A stretch of 64,000 nucleotides of DNA from Candidatus Woesearchaeota archaeon (GTDB lineage: Archaea; Nanobdellota; Nanobdellia; Woesearchaeales; GW2011-AR4), in the NCBI GenBank assembly GCA_016187465.1, contig JACPJQ010000003.1, positions 186,001 to 250,000 of the forward strand, read 5' to 3'. The notes beneath the pieces were generated by a model, which saw only the letters and a list, made by a program, of their open reading frames with translations, did not search any database and was not told the DNA's origin. The position numbers and the translations under genes were made by a program. The stretch's first letter is position 1. Each line of letters opens with the position of its first letter. Of the stretch, positions 46,827-50,143 are shown in pieces.

Positions 46827-47510
46827 ATGTCAAAAATAATTGTTAAGGACAAAGAAATATCAGTTCCGGGGGAAACTCTGGCGATAGGCATGGACACTTT
46901 GCCGGGCGCAGGAACTTACAGGGAAGGGGAAAGGATTGTTGCCAACAGATTGGGATTGGTGATGATAGACGGAAGGACGATAAAACTGATTCCTTTGTCA
47001 GGAAGGTACATTCCGAAAACAGGCGACACGATAATCTGCAAGGTGATAGATGTCGGATTTAACGGCTGGCGTTTAGATACAAATTCAGCATACTCAGCAA
47101 TGATGTCATTGAAGGATGCTACGTCTGAGTTCATAGCAAGGGGAGCAAACCTCACGCAGTACTATGACCTGGGCGATTATATAGTTTGCAAGATTGTCAA
47201 TGTAACGAGCCAGAAGCTTATTGACGTAAGCATGAAAGGGCCGGGCCTGAGAAAACTAAAGGGAGGCAGGGTGATTGAGGTTGACCCGAACAAAGTTCCA
47301 AGAATCATAGGCAAGCAGGGCTCAATGGTGATAATGATAAAGGACGCGACAAAATGCAGCATCACGGTCGGCCAGAACGGGTTAATCTGGATAGACGGCG
47401 AGCCGATGAACGAGCTGCTTGCTATCCAAACCATAAGGAAGATAGAAAAAGAAAGCCATCTGAGCGGGCTGACTGACAAGATAAAGGAATTTTTGGAGAA
47501 GAAGAAATAG
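46827..47510 (+). CDS. rrp4: Exosome RNA-binding subunit Rrp4
   Basis: 227 residues: N-terminal domain (VPGETLAIGMDTLPGAGTY), S1 domain (about 62-140, GDTIICKVIDVGFNGWRLD...) and KH domain (RIIGKQGSMVIMIKDATKCSITVGQNGLIWIDG). Forms the RNA entry cap on the Rrp41/Rrp42 ring. The following gene starts 1 nt after its stop. Confidence 0.96.
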   Translation: MSKIIVKDKEISVPGETLAIGMDTLPGAGTYREGERIVANRLGLVMIDGRTIKLIPLSGRYIPKTGDTIICKVIDVGFNGWRLDTNSAYSAMMSLKDATSEFIARGANLTQYYDLGDYIVCKIVNVTSQKLIDVSMKGPGLRKLKGGRVIEVDPNKVPRIIGKQGSMVIMIKDATKCSITVGQNGLIWIDGEPMNELLAIQTIRKIEKESHLSGLTDKIKEFLEKKK

Positions 47511-47511
47511 A

Positions 47512-48651
47512 ATGCTAAACGATATTATTCCTCGTATGAGCATTACATCTCACATGAGCAGGAATGGAGGGTTATATGGCCTGATAGGTTTATCACCCGC
47601 CATAAGGCAGGTTTATAAAATCATAGAGTTAGTAGCCCCTACCAAAGCAACTGTACTGCTTATTGGTGAGAGGGGTACTGGTAAAGATAGAATAGCTAAA
47701 GTAATTCATGAGTACAGTCCAAGAAAAGAAGATATTTATTTTCCTATTAACTGTGCCCGTAATACAGAGTCAACGTTAGCAAACGAAATGTTTGGACATC
47801 AGAGTGGTTCTTATACAGGTGCATCTTCAGATACAAAAGGTTGGTTTGGGGCAGCTACAAATGGAACTATATTTCTTGATGAGATTAACAGAGCAAGTTC
47901 GGAATTTCAAGATGCCTTACTAAGAGTTTTGGAGGATGGTTCTTATACCCAGATTGGTGGTGAAAGAATTTTATACACAAGTGCAAGAGTTATTGCTGCA
48001 ACTAATGGAAATCTGGACTATGATGTATCAATTAAAAGATTTAACGCTGCATTAAAGGACAGGTTAGAAGTTGTGCCTATTCCTGTTCCTTCCCTAGAAG
48101 AAAGAATTGAAGATGTGCCTTTATTGGCAGAATATTTCGTTAAAAAGTACTCTGTGGATTATGGAAAACACGTTACGCTAACCCCAGGTGGTGTGGACTA
48201 TCTGATGTATGCTTCGTGGCCTGGAAATGTCAGGCAGTTAAAACATTTTATAGAAAGTGCCATTATACTAAATATTGGAGAATCCAGAACCAACGGCAGT
48301 GGGTTAGAATTAAATGAGAAAAACCTTGAAGGATGCATGCAGTACCTCACACATGTAAAAAACCCAGATTTCAGGAATACTATTGAACTAACAGATTATG
48401 GTAACAAACCTATACCTACTTTAAAAGCAGCTCGCGATGGATTTGAGAAAGCATATTTGTTGCGGATTTTAACCATAGCAGAATATAAGGTAACAAGGGC
48501 TGCTGCAATTGCTGGAAAGTATAGGTCTGATTTTTATGATTTGTTGAGGAAGCATAATATCAAGCCGACTGAAAGATGGAAGTATGGAGAAATTCTAACG
48601 TCTAAGGAACAAGTAATACCAATAAAACAAGTACAATCTATAACAAGGTGA
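47512..48651 (+). CDS. NtrC/sigma-54-activator-type AAA+ protein with Fis-like HTH
   Basis: 379 residues. The AAA+ core starts almost at once (about 22) with no receiver or sensor domain: Walker A GERGTGKD (52-59), L1 loop GSYTGA (99-104) in place of the GAFTGA that contacts sigma-54, Walker B TIFLDE (119-124), arginine-finger region RFNAALKDRL, sensor II WPGNVRQL (236-243). The C terminus has a Fis-type HTH (AYLLRILTIAEYKVTRAAAIAG...DFYDLLRKHNI). Sigma-54 is bacterial, so acquisition by transfer and a changed role are likely. AT-rich codons; starts 1 nt after rrp4, and its stop lies in the rrp41 ribosome-binding site. Confidence 0.93.
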   Translation: MLNDIIPRMSITSHMSRNGGLYGLIGLSPAIRQVYKIIELVAPTKATVLLIGERGTGKDRIAKVIHEYSPRKEDIYFPINCARNTESTLANEMFGHQSGSYTGASSDTKGWFGAATNGTIFLDEINRASSEFQDALLRVLEDGSYTQIGGERILYTSARVIAATNGNLDYDVSIKRFNAALKDRLEVVPIPVPSLEERIEDVPLLAEYFVKKYSVDYGKHVTLTPGGVDYLMYASWPGNVRQLKHFIESAIILNIGESRTNGSGLELNEKNLEGCMQYLTHVKNPDFRNTIELTDYGNKPIPTLKAARDGFEKAYLLRILTIAEYKVTRAAAIAGKYRSDFYDLLRKHNIKPTERWKYGEILTSKEQVIPIKQVQSITR

Positions 48652-48659
48652 AAGACAAA

Positions 48660-49370
48660 ATGACTTACAAGCAAAGAATTGACGGAAGGGGCTTTGACGA
48701 GCCAAGGAAGATAGAGGCAAAAGTGGGGGTAATCCAAAGGGCGGATGGCTCTGCAATGTTCAGGATAGGCAATACATGGGCTTATGCAGCAGTATACGGC
48801 CCGAGAAATCTGCATCCAAAGTTTTTGCAGGACCCTCAAAAAGGCATATTAAGATGCAATTACAACATGATGCCGTTCTCAAGCTCAGGAGAGCGAGTAA
48901 GGCCGGGCGGCTCAAGAAGATCAAAGGAGATATCATTGGTGACGGCAAAAGCATTGCTTCCTGTATTGAATCTTGACGAATACCCGAACTCAGTTGTTGA
49001 CGTGTTTATAGAGCTCCCTCAAACAGAGGCAGGCTCTAGATGTGCCGGGATCTGCGCAGCCTCTATGGCGTTGGCCGATGCCGGATTGGAGATGAAGGAC
49101 CTAGTATGTGCAGTCTCTGTAGGAAGGGTAGCTGACAAGCTTCTGGTTGATTTGGATTATTCTGAGGAGAGTTATCCCGACGTGCCGGTTGCAGACATAC
49201 CGATTGCAATAATGCCCAACTCGGGCAAGATAACCCTGCTGCAGATGGACGGCGAAGTCAAAAAAGAGGAGCTAATGAAAGTGCTTGAGATGGGAAAAAA
49301 GGCTTTGATGGACATCTACGAAGTGCAGAAAAAGGCACTGAAGGAAAAATATCACGGAGTTGAGGTATAA
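48660..49370 (+). CDS. rrp41: Exosome catalytic subunit Rrp41
   Basis: 236 residues from ATG 48660; the AGGTGA before it contains the stop of the AAA+ gene. RIDGRGFDEPRKIEAKVGVIQRADGSAMFRIGNTW, NYNMMPFSSSGERVRPGGSRRSKEIS and TEAGSRCAGICAASMALADAG identify the phosphorolytic RNase PH-fold subunit. Forms the hexameric ring with Rrp42; degrades RNA 3'-5' with phosphate. Confidence 0.97.
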   Translation: MTYKQRIDGRGFDEPRKIEAKVGVIQRADGSAMFRIGNTWAYAAVYGPRNLHPKFLQDPQKGILRCNYNMMPFSSSGERVRPGGSRRSKEISLVTAKALLPVLNLDEYPNSVVDVFIELPQTEAGSRCAGICAASMALADAGLEMKDLVCAVSVGRVADKLLVDLDYSEESYPDVPVADIPIAIMPNSGKITLLQMDGEVKKEELMKVLEMGKKALMDIYEVQKKALKEKYHGVEV

Positions 49371-50143
49371 TGCACAGGGAACTAAGAAGCCACATAATCA
49401 GCCTGCTGAACGCCGAAACAAGGCTTGACGGCAGGAAACTGACAGAATACAGGAAGCCGATCAACGTTGAGCATGGTGTTGTAAAGACGGCGGAAGGCTC
49501 TGCAAGAGTCAAGATAGGCGAAACAGACGTCATTGTTGGAGTCAAATTGGAAGTCGGCGAGCCGTATCCAGATACTCCAAATGAAGGCACAATAATTGTA
49601 GGGGCGGAATTGCTGCCGTTGTCCAATCCTGATTTTGAGCTTGGGCCTCCGGGAATCGAGGCGATAGAGCTTGCGAGGGTTGTTGACAGGGGGATTAGGG
49701 AAAGCAAAGCAATTGATTTCAAGAAATTGTGCATAGAGAAAGGCGAAAAAATTTGGATGGTTATAATTGACATATGCCCGATAAATGATGCCGGCAACTT
49801 GTTTGATGTATCTTCGCTGGCTGCACTGGCAGCATTGAAGGACACAAAGTTTCCCGCCTATGAAGACGGCAAAGTGGATTACAAGACAAAAACCAGCAGG
49901 AAGCTGGAACTGGAAAAGACGCCAATTGCAGTCACTGTGATTAAGATAGGCGACAGGTTCATAGTTGACCCTGACATTGAGGAAGAAAAGGTCATTGATT
50001 CAAGGCTTACGGTCTCTTCAATGGAGGATGGTACATTATGCGCCCTGCAGAAAGGCGGAGATTATCCATTGACGATGGAAGACATTGACAAGATGCTTGA
50101 CATAGGGATCGAGAAAGCAAAGGAACTGAGAAAGCATTTGTAA
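49370..50143 (+). CDS. rrp42: Exosome subunit Rrp42
   Basis: 257 residues. ETRLDGRKLTEYRKPINVEHGVVKTAEGSARVKIGETDVIVGVK and IVVDRGIRESKAIDF match Rrp42, the non-catalytic RNase PH-like partner. Start overlaps the rrp41 stop (TAATG), indicating translational coupling. Confidence 0.97.
   Translation: MHRELRSHIISLLNAETRLDGRKLTEYRKPINVEHGVVKTAEGSARVKIGETDVIVGVKLEVGEPYPDTPNEGTIIVGAELLPLSNPDFELGPPGIEAIELARVVDRGIRESKAIDFKKLCIEKGEKIWMVIIDICPINDAGNLFDVSSLAALAALKDTKFPAYEDGKVDYKTKTSRKLELEKTPIAVTVIKIGDRFIVDPDIEEEKVIDSRLTVSSMEDGTLCALQKGGDYPLTMEDIDKMLDIGIEKAKELRKHL

Follow-up and report, generated by a model that had tools for sequence, protein, structure and literature searches.

The window, a stretch of 64,000 nucleotides of contig JACPJQ010000003.1 from a Candidatus Woesearchaeota archaeon, carries an archaeal exosome operon in which the genes for the cap protein Rrp4 and the RNase PH subunit Rrp41 are separated by a gene for an AAA+ protein resembling the bacterial activators of sigma-54. 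The genes and features at this locus are as follows:

46827..47510, + strand: rrp4, exosome cap protein, RRP4 (S1/KH), identified by Pfam
47512..48651, + strand: NtrC-class (sigma-54-activator-like) AAA+ protein, ATG start, 379 aa, sensor-less, with a predicted C-terminal Fis-type helix-turn-helix
47665..47688, + strand: Walker A motif GERGTGKD, residues 52-59
47806..47823, + strand: L1 loop GSYTGA, the GAFTGA equivalent, with Thr102 retained
47869..47886, + strand: Walker B motif IFLDEI
48040..48066, + strand: arginine-finger segment FNAALKDRL (usually FRxDLYYRL), with Asn in place of the first Arg and the second Arg retained
48217..48240, + strand: sensor II motif WPGNVRQL
48421..48552, + strand: predicted C-terminal Fis-type helix-turn-helix, residues 304-347, from the helices of the model and the sequence
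48648..49370, + strand: rrp41, exosome RNase PH subunit, identified by Pfam, with conservation suggesting a start at ATG 48660
49370..50143, + strand: rrp42, exosome RNase PH subunit, identified by Pfam

The protein encoded between rrp4 and rrp41 matches the Pfam families Sigma54_activat (PF00158; E 3.6e-49, 167.1 bits against a curated cut-off of 20.2) and AAA_lid_14 (E 4.5e-17). Its motif set comprises GERGTGKD, GSYTGA, IFLDEI, AATN and WPGNVR, with both sensor I and sensor II present. The GSYTGA form of the L1 loop recurs in the homologue from genome G217, and the bacterial matches show GSFTGA. The best NCBIfam matches are nifA and norR, all far under the equivalog cut-offs, and the closest relative in the PDB is the NtrC-family regulator 3dzd (186 bits). 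In the AlphaFold2 model most of the AAA+ core has a pLDDT of about 90. The top fold matches of this model are all sigma-54 activators (NtrC1, E 1.2e-27), and the fold also matches FleQ, ZraR and PspF. A Pfam search of the protein gave no significant helix-turn-helix match; three C-terminal helices, modeled at a pLDDT of about 77-89 in residues 304-347, and a reading of the sequence point to a helix-turn-helix of the Fis type. Pfam, the motifs and the model thus bear out the first-pass annotation, which had described an NtrC-class AAA+ protein with a Fis-type helix-turn-helix and no sensor domain. That annotation also called the ATPase intact. Walker A and B, the L1 threonine and sensor II are indeed in place, but the word is slightly too strong because the finger motif FRxDLYYR has lost one of its two arginines, the first, and keeps only the second.

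In its AAA+ fold, Walker A and B motifs and L1 threonine, the protein is similar to the sensor-less bacterial enhancer-binding proteins (bEBPs) such as PspF and to NtrC, NorR, NifA and ZraR. Sensor II and the C-terminal Fis-type helix-turn-helix are likewise those of the PF00158-family bEBPs. Unlike these bacterial proteins, it has lost the first finger arginine and resides in an archaeon that has no detectable sigma-54. Its identity to the bacterial matches that were compared reaches about 44% at most.

The fit of the gene into the operon is close, as had been described from the sequence. The open reading frame starts 1 nt past the rrp4 stop codon, and its TGA both overlaps the upstream GTG of rrp41 at 48648 (4 nt) and falls within the probable ribosome-binding site for the ATG of rrp41 at 48660. 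The first-pass annotation had suggested coupling to exosome translation. The spacing is nothing special, however: 20.7% of the same-strand neighbor pairs in this genome are spaced by -4 to +4 nt, which makes translational coupling here ordinary. The gene rrp4 was found in 15 of the genus's 20 genomes, one of the 15 being that of the window. In 13 other congeneric genomes rrp4 and rrp41 are adjacent, with gaps ranging from a few nucleotides to about 480 nt, and none of these 13 has an AAA+ gene between the two. Among the genomes examined, the insertion into the exosome operon is private to the window's genome. In one relative, G014 (L036/L037), rrp4 itself appears broken, with residues about 104-136 missing and a frame break, and rrp41 is intact.

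A gene that sits between rrp4 and rrp41 could encode a co-translated factor acting with or on the exosome, and recruitment of the ATPase to control RNA turnover had been proposed. The private position and the ordinary gaps argue against such control. The protein's relatives lie elsewhere, the nearest of them (G015 and G016) beside gyrA and hisS, so that a role coupled to the exosome is extremely improbable. The first-pass annotation had also considered that relatives without the insertion, combined with a chimeric contig, would undermine the finding. The relatives do lack the insertion, but a chimera was rejected, as the contig measures 408 kb and has the gene in its interior, flanked by adjacent genes of the exosome operon.

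Homologues of the AAA+ protein were found in 25 of the 353 genomes of the order at E<=1e-14, at varied loci. The window's genome has a second copy (C4:223201-224340), which carries a GAFTSA loop and has a GAPDH gene on one side and a PolX/PHP-type gene on the other. Nearly all archaeal members of the family are devoid of an N-terminal sensor, unlike the bacterial matches, in which the AAA+ domain begins near residue 150 or later. One homologue, from G257, was set aside as possible contamination, having a REC-type N terminus and kinase and chemotaxis genes as neighbors. Several archaeal activators (G217, G175, G124 and G071; L083, L086, L088 and L096) carry a C-terminal extension instead of a Fis-type helix-turn-helix, in which a motif such as YLTPxxLxxFF appears to be shared.

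Genes of this family have archaeal housekeeping genes around them. With neighbors named mostly by eye, they are found beside hisS or map (G008, G013, G016 and G017), near gyrA (G007 and G015) and beside asnS (G185 and G164). In G174 the NtrC-type gene (L138:5643-6662) is located, as judged by eye, in the spc cluster of ribosomal-protein genes, flanked by secY and a DUF106-like gene. The protein has VATGV in place of the GAFTGA loop and forms a VATGV clade together with those of G164 and G185. Aminoacyl-tRNA synthetase genes (hisS, asnS, proS and gltX) appear to be in excess around the activator genes. The NtrC-type proteins are 37% identical at the gyrA locus and 28% identical at the hisS locus, and the proteins flanking them are 71-74% identical. 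The diverged AAA+ proteins at shared loci may be fast-evolving orthologues or replacements.

The first-pass annotation had asked for a tree to place the protein. In this tree it groups with the proteins of G015 and G016, from its own genus, with support of 96/97. The loss of the first finger arginine is common to all three, and the G016 copy additionally has no L1 loop, Walker B aspartate, sensor II arginine or helix-turn-helix. A single archaeal clade was not rejected (p-AU 0.512) against a bacterial sample that was small and picked for its similarity to the window protein.

These results bear on the possibility that the gene is a passenger transferred recently, in a single event, from a bacterium. 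Its GC3 of 0.28 is below that of rrp4 (0.56) and rrp41 (0.52), in agreement with the earlier remark that its codon use is more AT-rich than that of its neighbors. As a sign of transfer, however, the composition is weak evidence because the exosome genes are the GC-rich ones: with a genome mean of 0.397 and a standard deviation of 0.084, the gene is inside the genome's range, at the 12th percentile. Among the loci that came back when 84,980 genomes were scanned with a pattern, no relative exceeds about 43% identity over a long stretch. This distance, the existence of a same-genus clade and the unrejected single archaeal clade make a recent transfer quite unlikely. A viral origin was rejected: viral contigs yielded no relatives of the AAA+ protein or of two archaeal RpoN proteins, phages none of one archaeal RpoN, and plasmids none of another. 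Bacterial plasmids frequently carry bEBPs, each at less than 60% identity.

The premise that sigma-54 belongs to bacteria does not hold in this lineage, because relatives of the window's genome, including the congeners G004 and G015 and further genomes from the order and the class, encode divergent RpoN homologues. These were found in G004, G015, G205, G173, G306, G122, G129, G179 and G508, the last of which belongs to another order of the same class. The 325-aa homologue of G004 matches PF04552, the RpoN DNA-binding-domain family, with E 2e-10. This family scores over its cut-off in all RpoN-bearing relatives except G015, whose protein was found through its homologue. Eight genomes of the order exceed the cut-off, including G101, which was set aside since its contig looks bacterial; a weak match in G432 was dropped, there being no open reading frame of at least 80 aa at that site. 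In G004 (L021:1420-2394) and G015 (L039:1495-2460) the gene occupies the same locus, downstream of a HAD gene. The two RpoN proteins are about 35-36% identical and the flanking HAD proteins 86%.

The archaeal homologues are 19-36% identical to the one found first, and a profile of eight of them matches the Aquifex RpoN chain (5ui5) with E 1.8e-21. The eight best PDB fold matches of the G004 model are bacterial sigma-54 structures, to which Foldseek aligns about 325 columns of a model that is in parts of low confidence. By eye, the proteins have a region-I-like start, a helix-turn-helix and an ARRTxxKYR-like RpoN box. The helix-turn-helix and the RpoN box are shared with bacterial RpoN, and the start and the lengthwise fold match may resemble it too. 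They differ from it in their length (260-401 aa compared to about 475-480 for the solved E. coli-type chains), in their divergent core-binding part, and in residing in archaea whose genomes mostly lack a bEBP.

For the window's own genome, the whole assembly (1,624,093 bases) was searched in six frames with a profile and with all filters off. No RpoN was found there by family, profile or filter-off search, the best match having E 0.36. In the sensitivity control, leave-one-out profiles recover every left-out RpoN member at E<=8.3e-21. The locus at which G004 and G015 carry RpoN is empty. The annotation had named rpoN with -24/-12 promoters as the finding that would speak against it; no rpoN was detected, and this outcome did not arise. 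The partner might be present and yet unseen, either as a sigma-54 that has diverged beyond the reach of the searches or in sequence absent from the assembly, the genome being 93.4% complete. The low identity among archaeal RpoN proteins, one of which escaped PF04552 alone, would be in keeping with this. A filter-off search of 1.62 Mb that returned nothing above noise, the outcome of its controls and the empty syntenic locus nevertheless make it unlikely.

A sigma factor of another type is encoded in this genome, outside the window. The protein, an ECF-type sigma-70 (G000:C5:138669-139535, minus strand), matches Sigma70_r2 (E 3.9e-13) and r4_2 (E 1.9e-10). Its gene lies between pyrK-like and pyrC-like genes and overlaps its neighbor by 4 nt, in a context resembling a pyrimidine operon of the order pyrB-pyrI-pyrD-pyrK-sigma-pyrC. 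Its presence agrees with the reported prevalence of sigma-70 proteins in Woesearchaeota (PMC8204110). The AAA+ ring might thus have been re-targeted and remodel an archaeal or sigma-70-type initiation complex rather than one containing sigma-54. Besides the ECF protein and the reported prevalence of its kind, the GAFTGA-like loops kept in genomes without RpoN fit this reading. It is unlikely all the same. The AAA+ activator and ECF sigma-70 genes have no genomic link in the window's genome. Moreover, no AAA+ activator is known to act on sigma-70 or TFB through its L1 loop.

RpoN and an activator are found together only in G015 and G205 (2 observed, 0.64 expected, P 0.13). Once G101 is left aside, six of the eight RpoN genomes show no match to PF00158 at 1e-10; G129 (98% complete) and G179 (96%) belong to these six. 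Most activator genomes are without RpoN and most RpoN genomes without an activator, and genomes that are 96-100% complete are among them. The -24/-12 pattern TGGCAYRNNNNTTGCW shows no excess in RpoN-bearing genomes (3.0 versus 3.2 per genome), the archaeal consensus being possibly different. With an overlap no greater than chance and unenriched -24/-12 sites, none of these genomes demonstrates a sigma-54 system that works on its own.

By combining these observations, the window gene can be described, with a probability of about one half, as a bacterial-type enhancer-binding protein that was taken up by the lineage and is now orphaned. The family is a small one of sensor-less, fast-diverging bEBPs spread thinly through the archaeal order. 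Because this order and one other order of the class also carry RpoN homologues, the lineage probably acquired the bacterial system of enhancer-dependent initiation in both its halves, with frequent loss. The window protein would bind DNA via its Fis-type helix-turn-helix, form a ring without the need of a signal, and spend ATP on pushing the L1 loop into an initiation complex of the sigma-54 type. In the window's genome the partner would have been lost or have diverged past recognition, and the remaining orphan would be drifting or have acquired another target. Its ATPase center is partly altered, one finger arginine having been lost, and a sister protein is decaying. The place in the exosome operon would give the gene steady expression and would say nothing about its target.

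Plain decay of an orphan fails to explain one feature: despite long divergence, the L1 loop has been retained where the genome has no RpoN. Many activators of such genomes have kept GAFTGA-type loops and finger residues. The gene content marks the organism as an archaeon, probably of a Woesearchaeota-like DPANN type and living as a symbiont. The activator might be delivered into a partner bacterium and use the RNA polymerase of that partner. In other species sigma-54 or sigma-70-like proteins would be delivered, each half working alone with host factors. The orphan activators, RpoN and ECF-like proteins would all be effectors made steadily from housekeeping operons, rewiring the transcription of the partner. 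This would explain why activator and RpoN are seldom in one genome, why genomes without RpoN keep the L1 and ATPase motifs, why sensors are absent, and why divergence at fixed loci is fast (the NtrC-type proteins at the gyrA and hisS loci as above; RpoN, 35%). No partner bacterium is known for the window's genome, however, and fast divergence and orphanhood fit decay as well. Delivery into a partner is very unlikely.

A 2025 survey (PMC12316311) states that archaea have no sigma factors, and its negative control for sigma-54 activators consisted of 380 archaeal proteomes. In contrast, activators and RpoN homologues are found here in archaeal gene neighborhoods, in several genera of one order. 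Like the sigma-70 proteins of Woesearchaeota, they are bacterial initiation factors embedded in DPANN genomes; the portions of PMC8204110 on such factors name sigma-70 only, and sigma-54 and bEBPs are the difference here. Components of a regulatory system so far regarded as confined to bacteria have thus entered archaea, with the partner missing from the window's genome. If sigma-54 works with an archaeal polymerase, enhancer-dependent, ATP-driven initiation is not limited to bacteria. Otherwise, the conservation of the orphan parts must be explained differently, for instance by action in a partner cell.

In G205, which also has RpoN, an ECF sigma-70 gene (L139:1169-1627) is close to a second NtrC-type AAA+ gene. 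In G508 (L172:828-3797) the RpoN homologue lies directly downstream of a Rad50-like gene, and in G217 (L125:3807-7804) the NtrC-type gene adjoins a Rad50-like gene. Near the activator gene of G015, the GyrA-like frame (L058:5215-7965) opens with an apparent LAGLIDADG-type intein, which ends in ...HN before TECRLTKL.
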